A stretch of DNA of 50,187 nucleotides from Desulfosporosinus sp. BRH_c37 (GTDB lineage Bacteria; Bacillota; Desulfitobacteriia; Desulfitobacteriales; Desulfitobacteriaceae), in NCBI GenBank assembly GCA_001516045.1, contig LOEW01000204.1:1-50187 (forward strand). Direction: 5' to 3'. The translations under genes were made by a program, and so were the position numbers. Positions 3,311 to 46,690 of the stretch are shown here, in pieces. Numbering within the stretch: the stretch's first letter is position 1; the number at the start of each line of letters is the position of its first letter. The notes below the pieces were generated by a model. The model saw nothing but the letters and a program-made list of their open reading frames with translations, was not told the origin of the DNA and searched no databases.

Positions 3311-3336
3311 GAATCATCCTCCGACGCAAATTGCAA

Positions 3337-4257
3337 TCAAGTCAAAGGTTGCAACTGTCCGACATAAAGAATCAGAAAACGGGAGGCGTATCCTCCGATC
3401 AATACTGCCAAAAGCAAAATTCGTACCCATTGCAAACTGACGTTTTCCCGTCGTCGCAGCCACCAGAATCCGATTCCTGGGAGCAGCAGTCCCAAGGCTA
3501 GGGCGACTCCCCAAAACAGCCATCCAAAATCGATCATGAGTAAACTAGCCGCTTCTCGAGTGTCGCGTGTGCCATGCCCATAAACGGCGATCCACAACAA
3601 CCAGTTTCCCAGTGTGATCCAAACAATTACACATAACGGGGTGAGCAAATCTCGAGTCCTCATCCACCTACCCTTTTTTTGACCTACAAACGTACAGAGC
3701 AAACTCAGTGCAGCCAGCCCAGTGATCAGAAATAACAATACGGAAGTGATTGTTGTTTCCGGAGTCTGCCATAAGGACCGCCCATAATTAACACTGAGCA
3801 AAAAACCATGATAGACTCCAATGGCTAAGCCCAGTAACGCAGCGATCCAACCGAACCAGAGACGAGAGCCGGACAACATATTGGTTTTTGTGCTTTCGTT
3901 TCCCTCTTTATCCCGCCACCATTGCCATGCGTAGATTAAAGAGAAAACCAGGAATAATCCCTGCAACCAGGATCCCCAAGCCAAGACGGAGGAAGCCTGC
4001 GGGTGAATGAGCAGCTCATAAATACGAATGGGCTGCCCTAATTCACTAAGCAGAAAAATCAGTCCTAGCATTACCAGAAACGGAGCGGCAATGCTTCCAA
4101 CCCGAATGAGTGTGCGATGTTTACTCTGGTTATGCCAAGTCAGCCAAAATGCAATCAGGAAAAGCCCCACACCCATGCCACCGAAAAAGAGATCGAGTGC
4201 CACCTTATTTTCCCAATAAATATGATGAACGACATCATAGGTGATCGTTACTGGCAT
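3337..4257 (-). CDS. NrfD/PsrC-like integral membrane subunit
   Basis: A hydrophobic protein of about 306 residues with roughly eight predicted membrane spans, of the NrfD/PsrC family that anchors molybdoenzymes and exchanges electrons with menaquinone. The glycine-rich first helix (LDLFFGGMGVGLFL), a LSELGQPIR segment and VLAWGSWLQG are typical. I start at the ATG at 4257 because GGAGGG sits six bases upstream; another ATG at 4281 would add eight residues. It overlaps the upstream FeS gene by 23 bases and ends 26 bases before the catalytic subunit, so the three are co-transcribed and probably translationally coupled. Confidence 0.88.
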   Translation of the reverse strand: MPVTITYDVVHHIYWENKVALDLFFGGMGVGLFLIAFWLTWHNQSKHRTLIRVGSIAAPFLVMLGLIFLLSELGQPIRIYELLIHPQASSVLAWGSWLQGLFLVFSLIYAWQWWRDKEGNESTKTNMLSGSRLWFGWIAALLGLAIGVYHGFLLSVNYGRSLWQTPETTITSVLLFLITGLAALSLLCTFVGQKKGRWMRTRDLLTPLCVIVWITLGNWLLWIAVYGHGTRDTREAASLLMIDFGWLFWGVALALGLLLPGIGFWWLRRRENVSLQWVRILLLAVLIGGYASRFLILYVGQLQPLT

Positions 4258-4861
4258 TAAGGGCCCTCCGTTCAATGTCATTTTGATACTTATACGTCGG
4301 AATCAGCGTGTCTTTATCCGGGATAATGTAATAGACTTGAGGACTTGTTCCCATTTCTGGTTTCAAGACTTGTACTTCGTGAGTATCCAACAATTGTCGC
4401 ACTTCACTGTTAGGATCATTGAGATCTCCGAAAATACGGTTACGCCCCACACAGGTATTCACACAGCTCGGAACCATGCCTTTGTCAACCCGGTGATAAC
4501 AGAAGTCACACTTGTTGGCCACTTGTTTGCCAGGATGCGAAAACCGGGCTTCATATGGACAGGCCATTATGCACGCTTTACACCCGATACACAGGGATTC
4601 ATCAACAACCACAACCCCATCTGGACGCTTATACGTGGCTTTCACCGGACACACGGCTGTACAGGGTGGATTATCGCAATGATTGCAGAGGCGGGGTAAA
4701 AAACTCACGCGAACATGCGGATAACGTCCCTTTTCCTCAGTCTTCACCCACGCCCGCCAATAACCGAGTGGCACATCAAACTCAGATTTACAAGCGACAG
4801 AACAAGCATGACAGCCGATACACTTGCGCAGATCAACCACCATGGCGTAACGTTTATTCAT
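4235..4861 (-). CDS. Four-cluster [4Fe-4S] electron-transfer subunit (PsrB/PhsB/DmsB-like)
   Basis: The 208-residue protein holds sixteen cysteines in four ferredoxin motifs: Cys14/17/20/24, 59/62/67/71, 91/94/97/101 and 118/121/133/137, the last with the wider spacing typical of this family. It should carry electrons between the NrfD anchor and the molybdenum subunit. Without a signal peptide of its own it would be exported with the Tat-bearing catalytic subunit. The ATG at 4861 is taken as start; a TTG at 4873 is possible but abuts the GAGGGGG purine tract. This is the first gene of the operon; about 210 bases of AT-rich leader precede it. Confidence 0.88.
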   Translation of the reverse strand: MNKRYAMVVDLRKCIGCHACSVACKSEFDVPLGYWRAWVKTEEKGRYPHVRVSFLPRLCNHCDNPPCTAVCPVKATYKRPDGVVVVDESLCIGCKACIMACPYEARFSHPGKQVANKCDFCYHRVDKGMVPSCVNTCVGRNRIFGDLNDPNSEVRQLLDTHEVQVLKPEMGTSPQVYYIIPDKDTLIPTYKYQNDIERRALNASNDHL

Positions 4862-5074
4862 TATGGAGTGCAACCCCCTCTCTTATTCGTTTTCTTATTG
4901 TGTTTAATTAGCCCATGCATTATGTATCGATGAAGAGAAACCTTCGATTTGGTACGCCCGATAAAGATTGCAAACAAACGATCACAAAATCGATATACTT
5001 GGTGTTGCCGAGCCAACTTCTATCTTGATAAAAATCTTCTACGATAGATTTATGATAAGAGGTTTACATAAAAT

Positions 5075-6645: not shown

Positions 6646-7383
6646 CTAACTATCGCATTGTGCCGGAAACGTTGATTTAAAAACCCCTTTGCCACGAACC
6701 CGGGGAATGGCTTTCTGGAGCAACATTTCTAAGTTCTCCACAATTTCCTGTAGTTTTGTGGAAGGAAAGCCAATCAGGCACTCTCCGTCTTCTAAATCAG
6801 TTGCCTCTCTGCAGCCATAACAACCGAGACTGCTATTTACTTTATTTTGTACATATGGCGTTAAAGTTGAATCAATACAAGTAGCCTGGAAAATACCGGA
6901 ATCAAACTGGAGACGGTCTCCTGTTTTAAAAATTGAAGCTAATGCTACCCACATAAGATGTTCGGGCTGCGACTCGATAATAACAACCTGTGGCTCAAAA
7001 TCACACTCCGCCAGCGGGGAAACTAGGACTCCCTTATACTCTCCCATAGGAAGTCTGGGCATCTGGCTCATAACCCTAGCCGCCGCTTCTTTGTTATAAA
7101 ACAACCCCAGACTTGACATCATCTCTCCCGAGGCTAGTTTCTCCGGCAGTGGTTTCAGACCGAAAGCGGCCGCTGATGCCGGACAGACAATATTTTCGGC
7201 ATTAACGTAAACCTTTTCACCCCGCCTTGCTCGATAAAGAGCTTGACAATATCTGAGTTTAATTTGGCCATCATAGTCTTTAGGCACGGCATCTTCTTGT
7301 TTCACAAATCTGGCAGCAATAGGTTGGGACTCAATCGTCAAAATATTTTGTAGTCTTTTAGCATAATCTTGATATGAATTCAT
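6646..7383 (-). CDS. DUF169 family protein (COG2043)
   Basis: A 245-residue soluble protein of the DUF169 family, widespread in anaerobes and of unknown function. It shows the typical opening (YAKRLQNILTIESQPIAARFV) and the Cys-bearing segments LRYCQALYRARRGE, NIVCPASAAAFGL and LGCYGCREATDLEDGECLIG, which could bind a metal or cluster. Start at ATG 7383 with GGAGGAG nearby. It begins two bases after the DGC protein's stop, so the pair is an operon downstream of an ArsR-type operator. A redox or metal-responsive role is inferred only from context. Confidence 0.82.
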   Translation of the reverse strand: MNSYQDYAKRLQNILTIESQPIAARFVKQEDAVPKDYDGQIKLRYCQALYRARRGEKVYVNAENIVCPASAAAFGLKPLPEKLASGEMMSSLGLFYNKEAAARVMSQMPRLPMGEYKGVLVSPLAECDFEPQVVIIESQPEHLMWVALASIFKTGDRLQFDSGIFQATCIDSTLTPYVQNKVNSSLGCYGCREATDLEDGECLIGFPSTKLQEIVENLEMLLQKAIPRVRGKGVFKSTFPAQCDS

Positions 7384-7385
7384 CC

Positions 7386-7748
7386 CTACTCCTCCTTTAA
7401 GCTACGAGCTGCGTCCAAAACAAATTCTACGACTTCTTCTAAGTGTGTTTCTTCATCATAATTCTTGTTTTTAGCAATGTTCAAATCTTTAGTTAAAACC
7501 ACATTTTGGTCTGGTTTTAATTCAATAGTAGCTAAAGCCTTTGTCGCACACTGGAGTTCACAACCATTGAGGGCGATAAATTTATCATGTTTCTTGGCAT
7601 TAGTGACAATGTTCTCTAGTCCGAGGGGTATACCCATAGCGCAGACAATACCTAAATTCTCATCTTTGGAAAGTGCTTTGAGTGAAGCTTTCGTCGTAAG
7701 TATTCCAGTGTTAGACGCACCCGAACAGGCTACAATTCCGATTTTCAT
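7386..7748 (-). CDS. DGC-domain (putative zinc-binding) protein
   Basis: A 120-residue protein with the N-terminal strand MKIGIVACSG (Cys8), Cys36 in GIVCAMG, and the signature N-G-C63-x3-C67 followed by ATKAL. The D of the D-G-C signature is replaced by N. The family is annotated as putative zinc-binding; its biochemistry is not known to me. It is first in an operon with DUF169 and its promoter carries a palindrome that an ArsR repressor could bind. Three further DGC proteins lie at 36.3-38.1 kb, so the family is clearly expanded here. Confidence 0.78.
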   Translation of the reverse strand: MKIGIVACSGASNTGILTTKASLKALSKDENLGIVCAMGIPLGLENIVTNAKKHDKFIALNGCELQCATKALATIELKPDQNVVLTKDLNIAKNKNYDEETHLEEVVEFVLDAARSLKEE

Positions 7749-7767
7749 AGTCCCACCTCCCTTTATT

Positions 7768-7797
7768 ACATCAACACATGTATGTCTATTGATATGT
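7768..7797 (-). promoter_or_regulatory. ArsR-type operator overlapping the DGC/DUF169 promoter
   Basis: An imperfect dyad, ACATCAACACATG followed by TATGTCTATTGATATGT, contains the ATCAA...TTGAT arms seen in ArsR operators. On the minus strand a TTTACA/TAACAT promoter with 17-bp spacing sits just upstream, so the dyad would block it. A related sequence (CAAACACATATATGTATGT) lies in front of the ArsR gene at 8258-8282. Confidence 0.55.
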
Positions 7798-7839
7798 TAC
7801 ACCTAAAGGAATCCCTTGTAAAGAACATTTTGTTAATTT

Positions 7840-8196
7840 TCAAAATTCATGTTTCGGGTCTATTGGCTGATTTTGTTGTAATTGCTCACATTCATAAGGA
7901 TCATGTTTTTTAATGTGTTTTATATCCTCTTTATTAACTAATTTAGTACACAGTGATACTAAATATGCCTCTGTATTTTCGATGTTTATTGTGTAATAAG
8001 TCCATTTACCATTACGCCTTTCATCAATGATACCGGCTTGTTTTAAAGTTCTTATATGATGCGAGACCAAAGATTGGGATATATTAAGCCTTTCCATGAT
8101 CTGACAATTGCATAATTCTTCCTCAGCTATAATTTCTAACATTTTCAACCGTGTCTCTTCACTTAATGCTTTGAAAAAATCTGCTCTATTTTTCAT
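7840..8196 (-). CDS. ArsR-family transcriptional repressor
   Basis: A 118-residue winged-helix protein: FFKALSEETRLKMLEII, then ELCNCQIMERL with Cys29 and Cys31 in the alpha-3 metal- or thiol-sensing position, the recognition helix ISQSLVSHHIRTLKQAG, and the wing RRNGKWTYYTI. It probably senses a soft metal(loid) or a reactive sulfur species and represses itself and the DGC/DUF169 operon 90 bases downstream. The gene has an extended -10 (TGTTATAAT). The C-terminal tail HIKKHDPYECEQLQQ adds a third Cys near the end. Confidence 0.85.
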   Translation of the reverse strand: MKNRADFFKALSEETRLKMLEIIAEEELCNCQIMERLNISQSLVSHHIRTLKQAGIIDERRNGKWTYYTINIENTEAYLVSLCTKLVNKEDIKHIKKHDPYECEQLQQNQPIDPKHEF

Positions 8197-8257
8197 GATT
8201 ACTCATCATCCTTGTTTAATGTATTTTAGTTTTTATTATAACACCCTTTCCTAAATA

Positions 8258-8282
8258 CAAACACATATATGTATGTATGTAG
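8258..8282 (-). promoter_or_regulatory. Second copy of the ArsR-type operator, upstream of the arsR gene
   Basis: ACAAACACATATATG followed by TATGTATGTA shares the CAA(A)CACAT..ATGTATGT core with the element at 7768-7797. It lies just upstream of the extended -10 of the ArsR gene at 7840-8196, as expected for autoregulation. Confidence 0.5.
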
Positions 8283-8287
8283 ATATC

Positions 8288-8608
8288 TCAACAGTCATAT
8301 CTCAGCTTTCTCTCGTTGCTATGATTATGCCTTATCATTGTTATTTCATTAAGCAAGTTTTTTGCTGCGTCACAGCCCTCTTTGCTTAAGGAATAGTAAA
8401 TCCATTTTCTATGACGGTGGCTACCAACTAGTCCCGAATCACACAACATCTTCATGTGGTGGGATAAGGTGGGTTGCGAAATATTCAGTTCTTCTAGGAT
8501 TTCGCAGGCGCACAGCTCTCTGATTTGTAACTTTTCAAGGATCATCAATCGATTAGGATCGCCAAGTGCTTTAAATATCTTTGCGTTGGCTTCATAGTTA
8601 ATCTCCAT
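8288..8608 (-). CDS. ArsR-family repressor with C-A-C sensor motif
   Basis: A 106-residue ArsR protein: IFKALGDPNRLMILEKL, RELCACEILEEL (Cys33, Cys35), recognition helix ISQPTLSHHMKMLCDSG and wing RHRKWIYYSL. I use the ATG at 8608 because TTGAGGTGATAAAT precedes it and residues homologous to other ArsR proteins begin there; an upstream ATG at 8683 would start inside the promoter. The CxC in alpha-3 is typical of arsenite/antimonite or cadmium sensors. No arsenic genes adjoin it, so its target is unknown. Confidence 0.85.
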   Translation of the reverse strand: MEINYEANAKIFKALGDPNRLMILEKLQIRELCACEILEELNISQPTLSHHMKMLCDSGLVGSHRHRKWIYYSLSKEGCDAAKNLLNEITMIRHNHSNERKLRYDC

Positions 8609-8644
8609 ATTTATCACCTCAAATCGATTATCGTTGATATGTTT

Positions 8645-8673
8645 ATAATATATTTCATATCGAGTATTGTCAA
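8645..8673 (-). promoter_or_regulatory. Sigma-70 type promoter of the arsR gene at 8288-8608
   Basis: TTGACA (8668-8673) and TATTAT (8645-8650) are spaced by exactly 17 bases. Two related arms, CATATTGAC...CGATATG and CATATCAAC...CGATTTG, flank and overlap it and may be the repressor's own operator. Confidence 0.7.
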
Positions 8674-8686
8674 TATGATTCACTAA

Positions 8687-34425: not shown

Positions 34426-35625
34426 TTACAGATTTCCGATCTCTTCCAATGATTCATTGGGTTCCACGACATGATCCCTTATCATGACAAAGCTCAAGAG
34501 CAACGTGACGATGAGAGCAATACCATTAATCAGGAAAAGGTTACTAAGTCCAACGGCTGCAATCACTCTTCCGCCAATTGCCGTACCGATACCGCCTCCA
34601 CCCATAAAAAAGAATGCTACCAGGGACATGGCGGCTCCTCTAGCCTTCTGAGCAAACTCTGTAGCTCTTGTAAGCAGCGTAGAATGAGTAAAGATGAAAC
34701 CAAGTCCTAACAAGGCAATCCCTAGGATCAACATCCCCAATACATCTCCATACAGATAGATAATGATATCTCCAACAGCGGCTGACACAAGTCCCAAGCT
34801 CAATACTTTGCGCGCACCCATTTTAGCCGCTAACTTACCACTCATTCTTCCGCCAATAACTGACATGATTCCGAAGGCCGTCATAATTAAACCAATATAG
34901 AGGTAGTTAAATCCATAGGTTTTGGCAATGTAAGCACCTGCGTAAGAAAAGCTTCCGATGATGAATATACCCTCCAGTAAAACAATGATATACGTATACA
35001 AACTCCTGCTCGTTCCCAGCAGCTTAGCATACGGCGCAAACAGTTTGCTGTCAGGATGCTTTTCTGAGGGGAGTAGCTTGTAATTTTTTAGGATCATTAA
35101 CGTTGGAATTATGGCAAGTATCGCATAGACGCCAAAAACTCCTCTCCAATTAAGGAAGTAAGCAATCGTGCCTCCTATGGCCATACTGAGTCCTTGACCC
35201 AGAAACGATATCCCCATAAACGTTCCTATCGCACCCTGTCTTTCCTGGACCGGGAACATATCTCCAATTAAGGCTAAGGATATTGGCATGACCGATGCGG
35301 CAAACACTCCCGTGAGCGCTCTGAATATTGCCAAACTGGTTAAGCTCGAACCTAACGCACAAAGCCCAGTCGCTATCGTAAACATGATCATAGCAAAGGT
35401 GATGACTTGCTTTTTCCCATATCGATCTGCCAAGGGCCCAAAGATGATTTGAAAAATTCCAAAGGGAATCATATAGGCCGAGATTAAGAGCCCCGCTCTT
35501 GAAATATCAATCGTCAAATTCTGAGCAATGGCCGGTAGTATGGGAGACACCACCCAGTTGTCTGCCATGACGATAAAACCCGCTAAACCGAGCAACATAA
35601 TGATCCTATTTCCATCCTTGTTCAT
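34426..35625 (-). CDS. Major facilitator superfamily transporter
   Basis: A 399-residue, twelve-span MFS protein with the loop 2-3 motif GPLADRYGKKQVI (motif A) and the N-terminal LLGLAGFIVMADNWVVSPILPAIA. It resembles Bcr/CflA- and AraJ-like drug or metabolite exporters. Start ATG 35625. Upstream lies an unusually long leader with short tandem repeats and a strong AT-rich promoter. Substrate unknown; metabolite or toxic-oxyanion efflux are both possible. Confidence 0.85.
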   Translation of the reverse strand: MNKDGNRIIMLLGLAGFIVMADNWVVSPILPAIAQNLTIDISRAGLLISAYMIPFGIFQIIFGPLADRYGKKQVITFAMIMFTIATGLCALGSSLTSLAIFRALTGVFAASVMPISLALIGDMFPVQERQGAIGTFMGISFLGQGLSMAIGGTIAYFLNWRGVFGVYAILAIIPTLMILKNYKLLPSEKHPDSKLFAPYAKLLGTSRSLYTYIIVLLEGIFIIGSFSYAGAYIAKTYGFNYLYIGLIMTAFGIMSVIGGRMSGKLAAKMGARKVLSLGLVSAAVGDIIIYLYGDVLGMLILGIALLGLGFIFTHSTLLTRATEFAQKARGAAMSLVAFFFMGGGGIGTAIGGRVIAAVGLSNLFLINGIALIVTLLLSFVMIRDHVVEPNESLEEIGNL

Positions 35626-36076: not shown

Positions 36077-36310
36077 TCAACAACCGCAACTGCATGTTGT
36101 CTTGGTTCCACCGGTATCTCCAAAATAGCTGATCGCTTCTGCCGGACACAACGCCTGACAACCAGTGCAACGATCAATGCATCCCTCTGGATATATGACA
36201 ATAGGTTTTTCGCTGTCTTTGTCGTAAACACCGTGAGTGCATTTATTGATACAAGCCCCACATTCAATACAATTATCGTTATTAATCACTGGATACCAAC
36301 TCTTCGTCAT
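36077..36310 (-). CDS. Two-cluster ferredoxin with a Cys-rich tail
   Basis: A 77-residue ferredoxin. The first motif is C-IE-C-GA-C-INK-C with spacing CX2CX2CX3C; the second is CIDRC-TG-C-QALCP with one longer spacing (CX3CX2CX3CP). It ends TTCSCGC, giving three extra cysteines. It would carry electrons for the operon's HdrA-like and DGC proteins. It is the last gene, 31 bases after the DGC protein. A tail of this kind is not standard in ferredoxins. Confidence 0.83.
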   Translation of the reverse strand: MTKSWYPVINNDNCIECGACINKCTHGVYDKDSEKPIVIYPEGCIDRCTGCQALCPAEAISYFGDTGGTKTTCSCGC

Positions 36311-36341
36311 CTTAATTTCTCCCTTATCACTTCAATTTTAT

Positions 36342-36836
36342 TCACTTAGGCCCGCATCCGCAACCACAACCCCCTGAAGGCCCAGTTCCTACCATGGCTA
36401 GTCCTTTAGCCACCTGATCTCTTTGAGCAGCTCTCAATACCTCGTCAAACTTGGTCGTTATCTCGCTGGCAAGCTTTTCCACCATGGCTTTGTGTTCATC
36501 CGTCAGGTTTCTGGTGGACAATGCTCCTGCTTCGGCAACTTCTTTCCCAATAAAATCCGTAACATCGATTGCGGCACTCACTTTACCACTATATTTCTCA
36601 GTAGCTCTTTTAGCGCAAGCTTTAGAACAACCATCCACAGAAATGGTCGGGAACTTTTCGGCAAATCCTCGTTCTTCCACTCCGCCTGCTAGAAAAAGTG
36701 GCAGACATATCGTAACAGTTGCATCCGGACGAACTTCGTCCAGCATTTTTCGGGTTGCCAGTCTTGAGATCGTCCCTCCCAGACAGTCCTCGCCACTACA
36801 GGATACAACTCCGATTTTCACCATATTTATGGACAT
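36342..36836 (-). CDS. DGC-domain protein with a C-terminal Gly/Cys tail
   Basis: A 164-residue DGC protein: VKIGVVSCSGEDCLGG, VTICLPLFLAGG, SVDGCSKACAKRAT (the D-G-C-x3-C signature). The C-terminal region is helical, then ends GGCGCGCGPK, an extra Cys cluster. The family is putatively zinc-binding. It begins two bases after the previous DGC gene. Two further members of the family lie upstream in the same operon. Confidence 0.82.
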   Translation of the reverse strand: MSINMVKIGVVSCSGEDCLGGTISRLATRKMLDEVRPDATVTICLPLFLAGGVEERGFAEKFPTISVDGCSKACAKRATEKYSGKVSAAIDVTDFIGKEVAEAGALSTRNLTDEHKAMVEKLASEITTKFDEVLRAAQRDQVAKGLAMVGTGPSGGCGCGCGPK

Positions 36837-36838
36837 TT

Positions 36839-37249
36839 TTAGCCCTCCTTCCTTAATAATTTAACCTTTTCGGCGATTTCGCCCGCTATTTCATCTGCAA
36901 TTAACCAGCCTTCTTCAGTGAGTTCCGTGGCTGTTCCTGGCTTGGCTCCTTTGTGTTTCCGAAAGGAATCGATGACCCTTACCTTTTCTGTTACAATGCC
37001 ACCGGCCAGCTCCGCATTTTTAGCTGCACACATAGCAGGGCATCCATCAAGGGTAATACACTTTTGTCCTTCAATTAATTCCTTGGCCTCTTGATCCCCT
37101 GTCACGATATACGCGAGACAGAGCGTACTGGATTCGTTCGGGCACAACTCCTGAACAACCTTCAAGGCACTTTCCCTCGCTACTAGGCCGTAGACCTTGC
37201 CCATCCCACTGCAGGGAATTACTTTGATCCTCTCAGACATGGAACTCAT
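36839..37249 (-). CDS. DGC-domain protein
   Basis: A 136-residue member of the family: IKVIPCSGMGKVYGLVARESA, LCLAYIVTGD, ITLDGCPAMCAAKNAELA. The signature residues D-G-C-x3-C are intact. It overlaps the DGC/GcvH fusion by 17 bases, so translation is coupled. The N-terminal P-C-(S/N)-G motif is shared with the fusion protein and may be part of the same metal or thiol site. Confidence 0.82.
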   Translation of the reverse strand: MSSMSERIKVIPCSGMGKVYGLVARESALKVVQELCPNESSTLCLAYIVTGDQEAKELIEGQKCITLDGCPAMCAAKNAELAGGIVTEKVRVIDSFRKHKGAKPGTATELTEEGWLIADEIAGEIAEKVKLLRKEG

Positions 37250-38105
37250 CTACCTTTCTTTTCAAAATCGTGAAATATCCCTCAAAATCAAGCAAAAGTT
37301 CTTTATCGTTTTCCAAATCGGATAGCTCCACTTCAGCGATCCAGCCTTTTTCATACGGATTCTGATTAATAAGTTCTGGGGCAACGGAAAGTTCTTCATT
37401 GACAGCGGTAATCTTACCTGACACAGGGGATACCACTTCGAAGACTGCTTTCCCCGATTCAATCTCGCCTAGCTCACCAAACTGTTCCACTTCGTTGCCG
37501 ACGACGGGTGGGGTAAAAAACATGATATCCGATAAGCTTTGCTGGACATAATCCGTCACGCCTATGCGTGCTTTGTTGCCCGATATATACACCCAACTGT
37601 CGTTTTCATTGAATAACAGGCCTTCTTTGGGCACACGGAAAATAAATTTGTCCTTTTTGTAAACTTCATAATCATACGTTTCAGGGTAGACTGTTTCGTT
37701 TTCTGCTGCCGTTTTACTTTCTGTAGCCTTTTCCGCTTCCTTCTCCAGAAGTAATTCATCGGCAACCATCTCAGCCAGTTTCACTTCATTTTCTCCAAGC
37801 CTTAAGGAGTCTCCCAGCTCAAACCCTCTAGTTTTTGCTTCTTCTGTTACCGTTATTTTGGCGGTAACTTTTAAGCCCTTTTCCGAAGCAAGCTTGCTAG
37901 CGCACCGCGTTTGGCAGCCATCAATCACAAGGAGCAGCTTTTCTTGGGCCAGTTTAGTATATCTGGCATCTGCCACTCGATATAACACAGGGCAAATTAT
38001 GTTACTGTCTGATTTTTCGATAAGGTTTATTGCGATTTCCCTGGCGATACAGCCTGCGCCTTTGTCCAGCCCATTACAAGGTAAGATAGCAAAGCTATTA
38101 CTCAT
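37233..38105 (-). CDS. DGC domain fused to a GcvH-like lipoyl-carrier domain
   Basis: A 290-residue fusion. Residues 1-85 are a DGC domain (ILPCNGLDKGAGC, IDGCQTRCAS with Cys64 and Cys68). A charged linker of about 50 residues leads to a glycine-cleavage H-protein-like domain (about 155-290). It keeps the lipoyl hairpin IESGKAVFEVVSPVSGKI with Lys219 as the lipoylation site (canonical H proteins have ESVKA). GWIAEVELSD and a C-terminal helix match H protein. No GcvP or GcvT is near, so it is probably not part of glycine cleavage. It is third in an operon with an HdrA-like protein, ferredoxins and two more DGC proteins. Confidence 0.85.
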   Translation of the reverse strand: MSNSFAILPCNGLDKGAGCIAREIAINLIEKSDSNIICPVLYRVADARYTKLAQEKLLLVIDGCQTRCASKLASEKGLKVTAKITVTEEAKTRGFELGDSLRLGENEVKLAEMVADELLLEKEAEKATESKTAAENETVYPETYDYEVYKKDKFIFRVPKEGLLFNENDSWVYISGNKARIGVTDYVQQSLSDIMFFTPPVVGNEVEQFGELGEIESGKAVFEVVSPVSGKITAVNEELSVAPELINQNPYEKGWIAEVELSDLENDKELLLDFEGYFTILKRKVDEFHV

Positions 38106-38391
38106 TGCCTGCCATCCCCTTTCTGGTTACCTTGATCTTCTTAGTTGTCTCTCCCTTATCCGGGAAGGTTATGGCATCCACTCCACAGGTTTTGCCGCAC
38201 GCTCGGCAGAAGACGACGCAGTTATCTGGATTTTTTACAATTAGCTTTTTCTCCTCAGTCTCCCGAACTTCATACACTTGGTGCGGGCAAAATTTGACAC
38301 ATTCCATGCAGTAGTTGCATTTGTCATAATCAAGAATTGGACTCCAGTCGATGGTATTTCTTGGAACTCCCATAAACGTGTCTTCACTCAT
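38098..38391 (-). CDS. Ferredoxin-like [4Fe-4S] protein
   Basis: A 97-residue protein with two cluster motifs: CNYCMECVKFCP (CX2CX2CX3CP) and CVVFCRACGKTCG. The second is CX3CX2CX3C. The flanking regions are longer than in simple ferredoxins. It overlaps the fusion gene by eight bases and starts two bases after the HdrA-like gene. It could pass electrons to the HdrA-like protein. Confidence 0.85.
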   Translation of the reverse strand: MSEDTFMGVPRNTIDWSPILDYDKCNYCMECVKFCPHQVYEVRETEEKKLIVKNPDNCVVFCRACGKTCGVDAITFPDKGETTKKIKVTRKGMAGNE

Positions 38392-38393
38392 GC

Positions 38394-38768
38394 TTATCCC
38401 TCCGCTTCGATTTGTTCAACCAAATCCTCCACCTTTTTGAACGCCGCTTCATTGGTCATATCTCGAATATCTAGCATATAGGCATCCTTTTCAATGTCCA
38501 ACCCTGCATCTTTGAAGGCCTGCTTGAACATCTTCCTATGCATATTCGGGGCACAGGCGCCAATGATGACCTTCCTGTGGGCTTTCAAATAATCTGCCAG
38601 AAACCGGTCTCCATCTTCTTCACATAACTGCGGGTGAATAAATCCGTATTCCACCGACAGCTCGACCCTGACCTGATTGATGAAATCCCAAATATCCATA
38701 CTTTGAAAACCTGGGCATTTCCCGGTACAGACGCACATAATAAACCCTGGTAACTGCTTTTCCGACAT
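38394..38768 (-). CDS. HdrA-like N-terminal-domain protein
   Basis: A 124-residue stand-alone relative of the HdrA N-terminal region. It has CVCTGKCPGF (Cys12, 14, 18), HPQLCEEDGDRFL (Cys49) and VIIGACAPNMHRKMF (Cys72), the order of cysteines found in heterodisulfide-reductase subunit A. The FAD domain and C-terminal ferredoxins of full HdrA are absent and could be supplied by the operon's ferredoxins. It is first in the operon. The Hdr name refers only to sequence type; CoM/CoB chemistry is not implied. Confidence 0.7.
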   Translation of the reverse strand: MSEKQLPGFIMCVCTGKCPGFQSMDIWDFINQVRVELSVEYGFIHPQLCEEDGDRFLADYLKAHRKVIIGACAPNMHRKMFKQAFKDAGLDIEKDAYMLDIRDMTNEAAFKKVEDLVEQIEAEG

Positions 38769-38817: not shown

Positions 38818-38934
38818 TATTTGAGGTTCAAACACAATTGGATTAGAGCTTTATCACTCGCAATAACGCTCCGACATCCGCCAACCAGGTCATCCCCAAG
38901 GACACCAATGCTTAGGGATAGTTCCTTGCTGTTG
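38818..38934 (-). pseudogene. Internally deleted remnant of dihydrolipoamide dehydrogenase
   Basis: On the minus strand INSKELSLSIGVLG matches the first residues of the Lpd at 45218-46621 (INSKELSIGIGILG). It then jumps to VIASDKAL, which matches VITSDEAL of the same enzyme's middle. The GTG start is ACG here. It ends at a TAG before the HdrA-like gene. So an lpd copy once headed this operon. Confidence 0.75.
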
Positions 38935-38960
38935 ATCGTCGAAACACCTCCTCGCTATTA

Positions 38961-39009
38961 TATAATTATCATATACTAATATTATACTAACGTTCTATTT
39001 TCTTTGCAC
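38961..39009 (-). promoter_or_regulatory. Promoter and AT-rich dyad of the HdrA/DGC/GcvH operon
   Basis: On the minus strand GTGCAA (39004-39009) and TATAAT (38981-38986) are 17 bases apart. TATAAT and ATTATA arms 14 bases apart form a dyad (38961-38986). The same arrangement, nearly identical, is found at 46642-46690 before lpd, so both units probably answer to the same repressor. Confidence 0.6.
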
Positions 39010-39154: not shown

Positions 39155-39484
39155 TCATTCCTTTGTCTTGATCTCTTGCATTAGCCGATGTTTAAAGTTT
39201 AACGCATTGCTTATTAGCTCCTGACCTTTCTGCAATACTGCCAAAATCTCCAGGTGTTTAATTCGATACATAACTTGCAGCCCCTGTTTTCTCGACTCGA
39301 TAAGATTTTCCCGACGTAGCACCGCCAAATGCTGGGATACATTCGACTGCCCAAGCCCAAGCTCGGAAATTATTTCGCAGACACACCGTTCACCGGAACT
39401 CAAATACTCCAGAATTTGCACCCTCGACGGATGAGCAATTGCTTTGAAAAGATTACTCGTCTTGTTTAACATTACAATTTTCAT
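39155..39484 (-). CDS. ArsR-family repressor (CVC sensor motif)
   Basis: A 109-residue ArsR protein: LFKAIAHPSRVQILEYLSSG, RCVCEIISELG with Cys34 and Cys36, recognition helix LGQSNVSQHLAVLRRENL, wing RKQGLQVMYRI. It is the close paralogue of the protein at 43372-43704. It lies about 150 bases upstream of the promoter of the HdrA/DGC operon on the same strand and is the probable repressor of that unit. The effector is unknown but the two-Cys site favours a soft metal or persulfide. Confidence 0.87.
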   Translation of the reverse strand: MKIVMLNKTSNLFKAIAHPSRVQILEYLSSGERCVCEIISELGLGQSNVSQHLAVLRRENLIESRKQGLQVMYRIKHLEILAVLQKGQELISNALNFKHRLMQEIKTKE

Positions 39485-39511: not shown

Positions 39512-40663
39512 TCAAAGATTGATATTGTCCTCAGCTACCTCTCTTACCGCCTGCAGAGCCGTCTCAATCTCGTCCTCACTCGTGAAATGGGAAGGACTAA
39601 AGCGAACGACCCCCTGTTCCAAAGTTCCTAGCATCCTGTGAGCATGGGCAGCGCAGTGTAACCCAGCCCGGGCGATGACTCCTGCCTTCTCTTCTAATAT
39701 ATAGCTGGCTTCTACAGAATCGAGTTCCCCAATATTAAAGGCCACAATCGGAGACCGCCTCTCTACTAGCTCACTTCCGTAAAGCTTAACCCCTGGGATC
39801 TCCAGTAAACCGTTCCATAATTTCCGGCAATGCGCCTGTTCTCTTATCCTTATTTTATCCACACCTTCCCTGAGTATGTAGCGCACTCCCGCTCCTAATC
39901 CGGCAATTCCTGCGCCGTTCAACGTGCCGCTTTCCAAGGCATCCGGCAGAAAGTCCGGTTGACGATCCTCTTCAGAGAGACTCCCCGTCCCACCGTAGAT
40001 CAACGGCTCCAAGCGGATCCCCGGCTTGACAATGAGTCCTCCCGTTCCCTGAGGACCCATCAGACCTTTATGTCCTGGAAAGGCAAGCAAATCTACGGCT
40101 AAACTTCCAAGATCGATAGGGAAAACACCCGCAGTTTGTGCGGCATCCAGCAAATAGTAAGCACCGTGTTCATGGGCAATTTGCCCTATTGCTTTCACTG
40201 GTAACAGGGTGCCTGTTACATTCGAGGCATGTAAGGTCACCACTAACTTAGTGTTAGGGCGAAAAGCCTTGTCATAAGCTTCTAAATCAAACTCTCCCCC
40301 GAGTATCCCCGGAACTTCGCTTACCTCCACCCCTCGCTGTTTCAAAGCCCAGAGCGGTCGTGCCACCGCATTATGCTCAATCGAGGAAGTGATGACATGA
40401 TCTCCCTGCTGCAAAAGCCCAAATAACGCCTGATTCAAAGCATGGGTAGCATTCTGAGTAAAGATAACCCGATTCGGATTATCTGTGCCAAATAAAACAC
40501 ACAAGTCTTCCCTTGCCTGATGAATTAGTCTAGCCATTTGCATCGCTGCACCATGTCCCCCCCGGCCGGCATTTCCACCTTTGTGCACAAGAGCCTCTTC
40601 AATAGCAGCTAGAACTTGTTGTGGCTTTGGCCAAGTTGTGGCTGCATTATCTAAATAAATCAT
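39512..40663 (-). CDS. Cysteine desulfurase-like class V aminotransferase
   Basis: A PLP enzyme of 383 residues. It opens IYLDNAATTWPKP, with PLP-binding Lys199 in FPGHKGLMGPQG and the persulfide Cys337 in LHCAAHAHRM. It belongs to the subset of desulfurases and selenocysteine-lyase-like proteins of anaerobes that lack an IscU partner. Start ATG 40663, nine bases after GGAAG. It follows DUF3343 (40726-40992) on the same strand; a DUF3343 is annotated as a putative Se/S carrier, so the pair may mobilise sulfur or selenium. Confidence 0.86.
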   Translation of the reverse strand: MIYLDNAATTWPKPQQVLAAIEEALVHKGGNAGRGGHGAAMQMARLIHQAREDLCVLFGTDNPNRVIFTQNATHALNQALFGLLQQGDHVITSSIEHNAVARPLWALKQRGVEVSEVPGILGGEFDLEAYDKAFRPNTKLVVTLHASNVTGTLLPVKAIGQIAHEHGAYYLLDAAQTAGVFPIDLGSLAVDLLAFPGHKGLMGPQGTGGLIVKPGIRLEPLIYGGTGSLSEEDRQPDFLPDALESGTLNGAGIAGLGAGVRYILREGVDKIRIREQAHCRKLWNGLLEIPGVKLYGSELVERRSPIVAFNIGELDSVEASYILEEKAGVIARAGLHCAAHAHRMLGTLEQGVVRFSPSHFTSEDEIETALQAVREVAEDNINL

Positions 40664-40725
40664 CTCACGACTTCCTTTCATCGAGCCTAAGTGGAGTCAC
40701 AATCGATCATCGAATTCAGGTATGA

Positions 40726-40992
40726 TCACCAGACTATTGAGAAGAATCCCTCTTCCCGTGCTTCGTACATCCCTGTCAGTACTACTCCGTCATCAATAAG
40801 ATCCTCAATGATCTCTTTACGTTCCAGTGGAAAGCACAAGGCAGTGTTACAACCGGATCTCAAACGAATTGGGGTAGGAATAGTGGCAAAGGGACACTCA
40901 TAACGGGAAAAAACCCTCTCTGCGCCCAAAGCCTCCGTTAACGATGGGAACGTGAGTATAGCTCGATATTCTTTCAATTTTCCATATAACAT
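40726..40992 (-). CDS. DUF3343 protein, putative Se/S carrier
   Basis: An 88-residue DUF3343 protein: AILTFPSLTEALGAERVF, ATIPTPIRLRSGCNTALCF with Cys48 and Cys53. The family is annotated as a putative Se/S carrier-like protein. It is upstream of the desulfurase-like gene with a 62-base gap. The promoter region is AT-rich (about 41080-41120). It supports selenium or sulfur delivery as a theme of the window. Confidence 0.82.
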   Translation of the reverse strand: MLYGKLKEYRAILTFPSLTEALGAERVFSRYECPFATIPTPIRLRSGCNTALCFPLERKEIIEDLIDDGVVLTGMYEAREEGFFSIVW

Positions 40993-43371: not shown

Positions 43372-43704
43372 CTAGCGGTCGGCAAGATGCCTCATCAAAG
43401 CTTCCCCTTCTCGAAATTGTTGGGCAAGAATTTTCTGGACCTTCTCCAGAATAGTTAATACTTCAGGATATTTGATACGGTACATGATTTTTAGGCCCAC
43501 TTTAGTCGATGTAATAATTTGTTGTTTGCGCAAAATACTCAAGTGTTGTGATAAATTTGATTGTTCAACTCCCAGATCCTCAATCAGCTCACAAACACAT
43601 ACTTCCTTGTCGTTCTCCACCAGTCGTTCGAGGATACGTACCCGGGTAGGGTGCGCTAAGGCCTTAAACAAATCACTCTTCATGGATACGATCCGCTCTT
43701 CCAT
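43372..43704 (-). CDS. ArsR-family repressor (CVC sensor motif)
   Basis: A 110-residue ArsR protein: LFKALAHPTRVRILERLVEN, EVCVCELIEDLG with Cys36 and Cys38, HTH VEQSNLSQHLSILRKQQI, wing TKVGLKIMYRI. The ATG at 43704 has GGAGGATTTTT ahead of it; the frame to 43743 is longer but lacks a site. It is similar to the ArsR at 39155. It lies just after the lipoate ligase gene and before the CDS at 43060. Confidence 0.86.
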   Translation of the reverse strand: MEERIVSMKSDLFKALAHPTRVRILERLVENDKEVCVCELIEDLGVEQSNLSQHLSILRKQQIITSTKVGLKIMYRIKYPEVLTILEKVQKILAQQFREGEALMRHLADR

Positions 43705-43772
43705 AAAAATCCTCCAAATCCATATTGTAATATTACTGCCCATGAAGCAACTATTTAGAGGTTTTTATCGGT

Positions 43773-44774
43773 TTATAACTCTGTTTCGCTAAGCCATAGG
43801 ACTACATCTTTGATAATAATCGCTTGATTTTCAGATTGACCCTCGACCTTTATTAAATGCTCAATCATCCTGTCTGATCTAAAAGAGCATCCTTCAAGAC
43901 CCTTCCCTATCTCTCTGATTAGGCCCTCTTCAAGGGCATCCGAAAATACTTGCACAGAATCTATACGACCATTTTTTAAACAAAACCCTAATTCCAGTTC
44001 TCCCCAGCCAAATCGGCGGCTAATGGAAAGGTCAAATTTCGGAGTATTGCCAAACCGCCAATCCCAAGAGGAATACTTTTGAACCAATGATTTGATCTTG
44101 AAGTCATTGCGATCTACTGATATCTCTTGGGCATCTCCCCCGTAAACATCATTAAAACTCTCTTCCATCCCTTCGATCACAGCGGCCAAGGTAACAGTTT
44201 TACAAACTTCCGATAGATTAACCACTCTGGAGCGAACCGAATCAACACCCTTGGAGCTTATTTTTTCACGAGATACCTGCAAGTAACGACTAAGCTTTGT
44301 CAGGTCGCTATCAATCAGGATAGTGCCATGATGCAAAGCACCAGCTTGATTGAAAAAGTAAGCGTTACCTGAAAACTTCTTTTCCCCAATCACCAAGTCG
44401 TTACGCCCCGAAAACTCGGCCTTTATCCCAATTTTTGTTACCGCCTGCAAAATTACGGTCAGTTGTTTCGATAGATCATAATGCTTTTTATTCATAATGA
44501 AGGTAAAATTCAAATTACCTAAATCATGATAAACTGCACCACCTCCGGATAAACGCCGGGCAAGTTTCCCGCCCTCACGTTCCAAATCAAGATGCCGGCA
44601 CTCTTTCCAGGCATTCTGATTTCTGCCGATGACCACCGTGTTGTCATTCTGCCATAAATAAAGTATAACTTCATCTTCGGTTACTTGGTCCAGCAAATGT
44701 TCTTCTATGGCCAAATTCACCCATGGATCATACACTAATGACTTGATGATACGAGTTTGAATTTGTGCAATCAT
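43773..44774 (-). CDS. lplA: Lipoate-protein ligase A
   Basis: A 333-residue ligase that activates lipoate with ATP and attaches it to lysine. The motifs are RRLSGGGAVYHDLGN (73-87) and EKKFSGNAYFF with catalytic Lys133, then HHGTIL. The C-terminal domain (about 250-330) is present. Start is the ATG at 44774, although the ribosome site is weak; ATG 44783 or TTG 44801 are alternatives. It lies between an ArsR gene and small Cys protein near Lpd. Its target here may be the GcvH-like domain at 37.2-38.1 kb. Confidence 0.88.
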   Translation of the reverse strand: MIAQIQTRIIKSLVYDPWVNLAIEEHLLDQVTEDEVILYLWQNDNTVVIGRNQNAWKECRHLDLEREGGKLARRLSGGGAVYHDLGNLNFTFIMNKKHYDLSKQLTVILQAVTKIGIKAEFSGRNDLVIGEKKFSGNAYFFNQAGALHHGTILIDSDLTKLSRYLQVSREKISSKGVDSVRSRVVNLSEVCKTVTLAAVIEGMEESFNDVYGGDAQEISVDRNDFKIKSLVQKYSSWDWRFGNTPKFDLSISRRFGWGELELGFCLKNGRIDSVQVFSDALEEGLIREIGKGLEGCSFRSDRMIEHLIKVEGQSENQAIIIKDVVLWLSETEL

Positions 44775-44908
44775 ACTACACATTCTCTTTTCTTTCTTCA
44801 ATTTTTATAAATTTACGAACATAACCTTTGATTCATTAATTGATAACAACAATGTTTCTGTAGGCTGTTCCTGCGGCACGGGTTGCTGTGATGTTCCGAA
44901 TGGACAAT

Positions 44909-45217: not shown

Positions 45218-46621
45218 CTATTTATGAATCGCCCTGCCAATCGCATCCCCACACGCTTCCATCACAGCTTCGGCTAAGGCTGGATGAGGATGGATCATAT
45301 CCGCCAAGATTTCTGCTTTGACCCCCAGACTGACTGCCAACGTGATTTCTGAAAGCAACTCTGAGGCATGAGGTCCCAGGATCCGAGCTCCTAAAATAAC
45401 CCCAGTACTCTCCTCCGTTATAACCTTAACAAAGCCTTCCCGCTCTCAATGGCATAAGGCCCTGCCGTTGTTTCGAAAATCAAAGCGTCCGACTTTGACA
45501 GCAATGCCTTTTTCCTTCGCTTGATCTTCACTCAAACCCACTGAAGCCACTTCAGGATTGGTGTAAACGCAAGAGGGTACAACCCTATAGTTTAGCCTGC
45601 TTTGGATGCCCATGGCATTTTCGGCCGCTACACGCCCTTCGGCAAAAGCCAGATGCGCCAGAAGACTGCCACCGATCACGTCTCCGGCAGCATAAACTCC
45701 GGCTACGTTGGTTTCCATACGGTTATTGACCACGATGGAACCTTTCGTCACCTCAATGCCCAGAGCACGGATGTCAGGAGATAGCCCCGCTAATTTTCTT
45801 CCCACTGCGACTAATACCTTTTCTGTGTGCAGGACCATTTCTTTTCCTTCTTCATTAACCACTAAGGTTTCCAGTCCATTTTCGGACTTAGAAATCTCTC
45901 GAACCTTTGAACTGAGCGCGAATTTGATTCCTTGCCTCTTCATGATTTTTAAGAGTTCCAACGTTATTTCCTGGTCCTCATTGGGAATGATCCTCTCTTG
46001 AACTTCCACCACAGTAACCTTGGAACCCAGTGAATTATAGAGAGTAGCAAATTCCATACCTATGGCCCCAGCTCCTATGATAGTGATACTTTCAGGGATC
46101 TCCGTTAGTTCCAGCGCCTCATCACTCGTGATAACGCCTTCTAACATAACACCTGGTATCTCTGGAATTAAGGGCTCCGAACCCGTAGTAATAATCAAAC
46201 GATTGCAGTTGACCACAAGGTCTCTGTCTGCGGTTTTAACGATCACCCTTTGCGAGGATTCAATCCACCCCTTTCCCCGCAAGACTTCAACCCCATTTTT
46301 TGCCAGCAGATGCTCTACACCCATCCTGAGACTTTTTACCACTCGGTCCTTTCTGGCCTTGCCAACGCTAGCATCGACGGATGAAACCATTGCTGTTATG
46401 CCCAATTCTTTAGACTTATTAAGCATGGATAAGACTTCCGATGTTTTAAGTAATGCTTTAGTTGGAATACATCCCCTATTGAGACAGGTTCCTCCCACAT
46501 CTCTATCCTCAATGAGTGTCACTTTTGCACCAAGCTGAGCAGCACGTATAGCTGCTACATATCCAGATGGGCCACCGCCAAGGATACCGATTCCTATGGA
46601 GAGTTCCTTGCTGTTGATCAC
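45218..46621 (-). CDS. lpd: Dihydrolipoamide dehydrogenase with an internal TGA
   Basis: A 467-residue E3-type flavoprotein that reoxidises dihydrolipoyl groups with NAD+. The FAD motif GGGPSGYVAA, redox pair C46-LNRG-C51, NAD motif IGAGAIGMEFA and the C-terminal HPHPALAE (His446, Glu451) are all present. The frame is interrupted by one TGA at codon 392 (45446-45448) inside FRNNGRALCH/EREGFVKV, where relatives usually have Gly. All else is open to the TAG at 45218. Either the gene is inactivated or the codon is read through. GTG start at 46621 with GAGGGGG. Its promoter duplicates that of the HdrA/DGC operon. Confidence 0.82.
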
Positions 46622-46641
46622 CGAAACGCCCCCTCTTATTA

Positions 46642-46690
46642 TATAATTATCATATAGTAATATTATACTACGGCTCTGTTTTCTTTGCAC
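46642..46690 (-). promoter_or_regulatory. Promoter and AT-rich dyad of lpd
   Basis: GTGCAA (46685-46690), 17 bases, TATAAT (46662-46667), and TATAAT/ATTATA arms 14 bases apart (46642-46667). It is nearly identical to 38961-39009. Confidence 0.6.

Follow-up and report, generated by a model that had tools for sequence, protein, structure and literature searches.

What a lipoyl carrier might do when it is fused to a DGC domain and encoded among ferredoxins is the question raised by a compact array of six genes in Desulfosporosinus sp. BRH_c37. The array lies on contig LOEW01000204.1 (assembly GCA_001516045.1), of which the whole 50,187 nucleotides were analysed and are called the window here. 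Its central gene encodes a fusion of a DGC domain with an H-protein-like (GcvH) domain. The fusion and four of its neighbours were found to keep one gene order in all the loci compared, and the fusion is clustered with arsenic genes. A lipoate-based relay for trivalent arsenic or a similar thiophile is tentatively proposed as the function of this module.

The gene array and its conserved order

Six open reading frames (ORFs) occupy the minus strand from 38768 to 36077, with successive inter-gene distances of 2, -8, -17, 2 and 31 bases. The first gene, HdrN (38394..38768), encodes a stand-alone HdrA N-terminal domain of 124 amino acids (aa). Pfam gave no match for HdrN; it was assigned by its likeness to the HdrA N-terminus in NCBIfam (1.8e-6, far below the cut-off of that full-length model) and to the HdrA chains 7bkb_A (3.6e-5) and 5odc_A (3.4e-4) in the PDB, and its CxC pair, C49 and C71 align with cysteines of HdrA. 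It is followed by FdA (38098..38391), a dicluster 4Fe-4S ferredoxin of 97 aa with Pfam Fer4_7 and Fer4_10 matches over the cut-off, and by the fusion itself (37233..38105; 290 aa), in which Pfam identifies a DGC domain (3.4e-17) and a GCV_H domain (9.9e-32) with a predicted lipoyl-lysine at K219. The next two genes encode DGC proteins, DGC2 (36839..37249; 136 aa; Pfam DGC 4.2e-13) and DGC3 (36342..36836; 164 aa; 1.6e-16), the latter ending in a C-terminal GGCGCGCG tail. Against the DGC model PF08859 the fusion, DGC2 and DGC3 score 62.9, 49.7 and 60.7 bits, all above the gathering cut-off of 27. The last gene, FdB (36077..36310), encodes a second dicluster ferredoxin by Pfam, of 77 aa with a C-terminal CSCGC tail. 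The original prediction had described a tight six-gene operon with gaps or overlaps of at most 31 bases, in which a fusion of DGC and an H-protein-like carrier stands beside two DGC proteins, two ferredoxins and a short HdrA-N-like protein, and our annotation agrees with it in each of these respects.

The order HdrN-FdA-fusion-DGC2-DGC3 was kept in 23/23 compared loci from about ten genera. Because it recurs in all of them, this five-gene order is not attributed to chance, with the qualification that the loci were selected for holding the fusion and that several are near relatives. They comprise seven from Desulfosporosinus, one from a Clostridiales metagenome-assembled genome (MAG), two from Caloramator, three from Clostridium, one from a Symbiobacteriaceae MAG, two from genus g10, one each from g4, g63 and g50, and four from g33. 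Duplicates of kept loci (L013, L015, L031 and L041) and short stretches (L001-L012 and L032-L039, with L009-L012 being plain GcvH matches) were left out of this count. Families of the neighbouring genes were assigned by blastp clusters, apart from those identified by domain scans.

The module is widespread but patchy. A full-length fusion was found in 8/60 near genomes (own genome counted), in 5/29 genomes of the genus, in 4/22 genomes of one order, in 8/299 genomes of the phylum, and in 11 loci of the genome contigs collection. The window fusion is 98% identical to that of D. metallidurans and 89% identical to a second copy in its own genome (G000:C239; locus L024). The protein database yielded 1378 fusion proteins among 3106 candidates, with both domains present in 120/120 of those listed, and the searches with DGC2 and HdrN gave 343 of 380 and 1200 of 1200 candidates respectively. 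The fusion is therefore no rare singleton without partners, and the distinct, ferredoxin-linked lipoyl-carrier module that had been predicted is borne out as a conserved unit. Several database records label the fusion plainly 'glycine cleavage H protein', a name that conceals it, and among the open-licence papers listed in literature searches no description of the module was seen.

The predicted lipoyl carrier and its partners

Lys219 lies within an IESGKA motif and is invariant in 17/17 aligned fusions, as are C10, C38, C64 and C68. The structure model of the fusion has a mean pLDDT of 84 and a pTM of 0.54, and comparison of the modelled H domain with H-protein crystal structures gave a TM score of 0.92 (by target length) and an rmsd of 1.0 (about 1 A) for 3klr. 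In the model, the fusion thus carries an H-protein fold with the lipoyl lysine in place. The fusion falls, narrowly, below both curated GcvH cut-offs (NF002270, 115.6 against 117; TIGR00527, 105.7 against 115.85). The tree was built from 39 of 41 rows, two duplicates being left out; its 'canonical-like' labels are mostly motif-based, and only four such rows are known to stand beside GcvP. In this tree the 17 fusions have H domains that group in a single clade (support 100/99), separate from canonical-type GcvH. Their nearest neighbours are three Hdr-linked H-like proteins, a placement with modest support (92/94) in which long branches may mislead.

The original prediction that no glycine-cleavage partner is encoded nearby holds for GcvP, which was found near the fusion in 0/19 fusion genomes (GcvT had no search), but not for Lpd, since this L-protein is an ancestral neighbour of the module. 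GcvP was not found in six of the 19 genomes, and in the other 13 it lies on another contig or at least about 270 kb from the fusion; in the window's own genome (G000) a separate GcvH adjoins GcvP on contig C225. The fusion and the glycine cleavage system (GcvH, GcvP, GcvT and Lpd) have in common the H-protein fold, the lipoyl lysine and the Lpd partner, and the module differs in its distant or missing GcvP, its own H clade, its fused DGC domain, and its ferredoxins and HdrN. That the fusion is an H protein of glycine cleavage or lipoate storage that carries an additional domain and serves GcvP and GcvT encoded elsewhere is suggested by the fold, the lysine and Lpd but is made very improbable by the whereabouts of GcvP, the separate GcvH in G000, the distinct clade and the scores below both NCBIfam cut-offs.

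Lpd (dihydrolipoamide dehydrogenase) is encoded directly upstream of HdrN in 15/23 loci, at 11 to 266 bases, and a same-strand gene for a lipoate-protein ligase (LplA) occurs within 9 kb in 8/23 loci, the window included. HdrN of the window has no adjacent Lpd; LplA (43773..44801, minus strand; Pfam LplA-B_cat 4.6e-65) and a stop-interrupted Lpd gene (45218..46621, minus strand; Pfam, its start being placed at 46621 by comparison with the second copy) are found 5-8 kb upstream. The Lpd gene has an in-frame TGA at 45446-45448, past which tblastn homology continues to the homologue's end, and this codon is either a nonsense change or an assembly error. Upstream of HdrN is a gap of 386 bases whose DNA shares 77% identity with the Lpd promoter and start at 46826-46570. 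It retains a ribosome-binding site and about 17 Lpd codons (38888..38939, minus strand), after which the match ends; tblastn with Lpd found nothing in this gap. The simplest reading of this remnant is that an Lpd gene beside HdrN was lost from the window by deletion. The second module copy (L024) has an adjoining Lpd that is unbroken.

In DGC2, four cysteines (C13, C44, C70 and C74) are invariant in a 37-row alignment. They are positioned in the structure model (pLDDT 92) in loops or at helix starts after strands, a placement that a single common site would require. The cysteine-rich C-terminal tail of DGC3 is found in 9/23 loci, the others being without it. FdB is not universal in the module; it was labelled by blastp near 8/23 loci, one of these being a 550-aa protein, and its cysteine-rich tail is present in seven of the eight.

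A second DGC2-DGC3 pair was observed in L028 (16420-18880) behind an ArsR gene and without a GcvH fusion, together with LplA and two small proteins of the same cluster, of which the one scanned is a Biotin_lipoyl protein. A member of this small-protein cluster and LplA also follow DGC3 in L029. These arrangements suggest that the pairing of DGC proteins with lipoyl carriers took place on more than one occasion.

Arsenic genes near the module and the competing readings

The arsenite exporter gene acr3 (TIGR00832) and ArsP_1-type permease genes (PF03773) were mapped in the 19 fusion genomes, and linkage was counted in the seven genomes that have the fusion on one large contig, with ArsP_1 sites merged by hand and halves counted once. 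Within 25 kb of the fusion lie 7/9 acr3 copies (0.13 expected) and 16/20 merged ArsP_1 sites (0.30 expected); within 10 kb the counts are 5/9 and 9/20. Linkage of acr3 or ArsP_1 within 25 kb was observed in 7/7 of these genomes, and for acr3, with one genome taken per genus, the product of the chance probabilities is 7e-6. In the five of the seven genomes that have gcvP, this gene lies at least about 265 kb from all acr3 and ArsP_1 sites.

Among the 23 loci, ArsP_1-type permeases occur in twelve and ArsR-family genes in twenty, and a CxC motif is present in 31/33 ArsR-family ORFs, the one counted in L026 being unusually placed. In L042 an ArsM gene flanked by two ArsR genes lies immediately upstream of HdrN; L030 holds ArsM and Acr3, L027 an ArsA fragment, and L029 Acr3 and an ArsC-like protein below the ArsC cut-offs. 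Both ArsP_1 and acr3 matched on C239, the contig that carries the second copy. The module shares with ars islands (ArsR, Acr3, ArsP, ArsM and ArsA) the genomic setting, the CxC-type ArsR regulators and the exporters, and differs from them in its own genes: to our knowledge the five core genes are not among the described ars genes, and Pfam and NCBIfam named none of them as such. In 8/23 loci the ArsP_1-type permease gene is split in two, the halves encoding about 160 and 178 aa, for example in L022 (6845-7860) and L043 (5289-6310).

The original prediction had the carrier bind or transfer sulfur, selenium or a metal(loid); this stands in part, as the neighbouring genes favour metalloids of the arsenic type over sulfur or selenium. 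We propose that the module is a lipoate-based relay in which trivalent arsenic or a similar thiophile would be chelated by a predicted lipoyl arm on Lys219 and passed between cysteine-rich DGC sites to efflux, a reading that we consider quite possible but put forward tentatively. The evidence for it consists of the constant gene order, Lpd as frequent neighbour and as remnant in the window, and the LplA genes, together with the clustering with acr3 and ArsP_1, the ArsM and ArsA neighbours, the ArsP_1 permeases in twelve of the loci, the CxC motifs of the ArsR proteins and the second DGC2-DGC3 set of L028 with its lipoyl-carrier-like proteins and LplA. Reduced lipoate is, in addition, a recognised arsenic target (PMC6453569).

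We infer each step of such a relay, from lipoylation onward, as follows. LplA would lipoylate Lys219. Lpd would pass on electrons from NADH, and HdrN electrons from ferredoxin, so that the arm and the DGC thiols stay reduced. Bound to the dihydrolipoyl dithiol, As(III) or organo-As(III) would be transferred from the arm to DGC2 and DGC3 and released by ArsP, MFS or Acr3 exporters, with CxC-type ArsR proteins derepressing the operon upon metalloid entry. In one variant the dithiol would reduce As(V) or methyl-As(V); in another, thiolation would take place with sulfur from the cysteine desulfurase. A bolder claim, which we hold with slightly less assurance, is that the module represents a new class of lipoate-dependent machine, in which anaerobes would have made the cofactor that arsenic poisons into the handler of arsenic, its dihydrolipoyl swinging arm capturing arsenicals and channelling them from one DGC site to another for reduction, thiolation or export.

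Several observations weigh against this arsenic reading. Nine of the 23 loci, the window among them, have no ArsP_1, acr3, ArsM or ArsA in the stretch examined, and the 50-kb contig of the window has no ArsP_1 or acr3 match. Neither acr3 nor ArsP_1 was found genome-wide in G167 (81% complete), and no acr3 was found in G101 and G364. Across the 299 genomes, acr3 is present in 6/8 genomes with the fusion and in 138/291 without it, which is not significant (p 0.12); the claim is accordingly that the fusion is clustered with arsenic genes, not that it co-occurs with them. In L030, L042 and L043-L046 no Lpd was found close to HdrN. The CxC motif also suits Cd/Pb sensors, and genes for CDF-family proteins, a P-type ATPase (L024), cysteine desulfurases and Se/S carriers are also neighbours of the module.

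The main rival is a sulfur/selenium relay in which the lipoyl arm would bear sulfane sulfur or selenide received from the cysteine desulfurase and the Se/S carrier, by analogy with LbpA. We think this doubtful, and the same degree of doubt attaches to its electron side, in which the DGC proteins and HdrN would move the chalcogen or its electrons. A cysteine desulfurase gene is found in 11/23 loci and an Se/S carrier gene in 5/23, and a LysR protein encoded downstream of the window array matches a selenium-metabolism LysR family (271.7 against a cut-off of 250). There is also the precedent of sHdr sulfur oxidation, where lipoyl carriers (LbpA) work with Hdr-like proteins and are proposed to carry sulfur (PMC6067878); sHdr genes are under sulfane-sulfur-responsive ArsR-type repressors (PMC12423496). 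The sHdr-LbpA system (PMC6067878) and the module are alike in co-encoding a GcvH-like lipoyl carrier, an LplA-type ligase and an Hdr-type protein, with ArsR-type regulators near, although a dedicated LplA near the carrier gene, a trait of sHdr-LbpA, is only partly shared, as in the loci with LplA counted above. The module differs from the sHdr system (PMC6067878) in having only the 124-aa HdrA N-domain where sHdr has a full Hdr-like complex, and in its DGC proteins, Lpd neighbour, arsenic-gene setting and anaerobic Bacillota hosts. No sHdr complex was seen nearby where examined: the Pfam, NCBIfam and PDB searches of the array gave no complete HdrA, and a search for the HdrB-type CCG domain had many matches; among the matches listed, none falls less than 25 kb from the fusion in the seven one-large-contig genomes. 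Both results speak against a sulfur/selenium relay, as do the clustering of the fusion with ArsP_1 and acr3 and the ArsM gene beside HdrN in L042.

A second rival, which we regard as unlikely, is a general thiophilic-metal module (for Cd, Zn, Hg, Sb or organometals) in mixed resistance islands, where the arsenic genes would be fellow travellers. Genes of the CDF family in 5/23 loci, the P-type ATPase in L024 and a putative P-type ATPase in L026, behind a DGC gene bearing the same promoter element as the module, are consistent with it, and two scanned permeases match models of SO_0444 Cu/Zn and SaoE efflux proteins below their cut-offs. However, the acr3 family is specific for arsenite and its genes stand close to the fusion in 7/7 of the one-large-contig genomes, and in L042 ArsM is placed between ArsR and HdrN. 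SAO is the selenocysteine-assisted organometal system, which the module resembles in its SaoE-like neighbour permeases and in the selenium-type LysR downstream of the window copy; the two scanned permeases reach 129.7 and 92.7, below the SaoE (NF040736) cut-off of 325, and the other Sao proteins had no search.

Carriers of the module include Desulfosporosinus, Clostridium and related anaerobes, many of their genomes having arsenic-resistance genes near it. Lipoate is known from five characterised complexes of carbon metabolism and from sHdr sulfur oxidation (PMC6067878). If the arsenic relay is true, lipoate would gain a further role, in a widespread module where a lipoyl carrier is combined with Lpd, ferredoxins and a minimal piece of HdrA near arsenic genes, and the holding and passing of arsenic would be an unusual job for lipoic acid. 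The DGC proteins would also gain a testable function, and the metalloid chemistry of anaerobic soils and mine sites would be opened to experiment.

The promoter-like element and the wider window

A 34-base promoter/operator-like element precedes both HdrN (38956..38990, minus strand) and Lpd (46637..46671, minus strand) in the window; a DNA pattern search expected none in shuffles. Seven matches to the pattern, with at most three mismatches, were counted across five Desulfosporosinus genomes and none to the reversed pattern, and five of the seven precede module or Lpd starts (twice in the window and once each in L014, L016 and L025). In G008 no match to the pattern was found. One further copy precedes a DGC gene and an apparent split P-type ATPase gene (a call by eye) in L026 (10284-10639). 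Another, in L054 (6491-7147), precedes a putative FmdE-like gene, followed by a homologue of the ArsR-family regulator B (ArsR_B) of the window. As this homologue sits behind the same element in another genome, ArsR_B is a candidate repressor of the element.

The array in the window is part of a larger cluster with genes for ArsR, cysteine desulfurase, Se/S carrier, LplA and Lpd, all on the minus strand. Regulator A (39155..39484; Pfam HTH_5 7.9e-18) and ArsR_B (43372..43743; Pfam 5.6e-14) are ArsR-family proteins, both with a CVC motif. Between them are encoded a cysteine desulfurase family protein (39512..40681; TIGR01977, 430.8 bits against a cut-off of 377) and a putative Se/S carrier protein-like product (40726..40992; PF11823, 2.7e-13). 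An MFS transporter gene follows the array (34426..35625, minus strand; Pfam MFS_1 1.2e-58), and related MFS genes were found in 11/23 loci.

Elsewhere in the window, a further DGC protein (PF08859 1.7e-21) is encoded beside a DUF169 protein and two ArsR-like ORFs at 6646-8683, and three genes at 866-4873 encode a molybdopterin oxidoreductase (PhsA/Psr type, below the cut-off), a four-cluster ferredoxin and NrfD. A separate non-canonical lipoyl locus was observed in Desulfosporosinus (L075:4999-12252; G019:C8), with two GcvH-like proteins at its flanks. Between them are, by names given by eye, an apparent FAD-linked oxidase and an HdrB-type (CCG) protein, and the locus also holds two radical-SAM-like proteins, perhaps LipS1 and LipS2, and a LipB-like gene, likewise named by eye.

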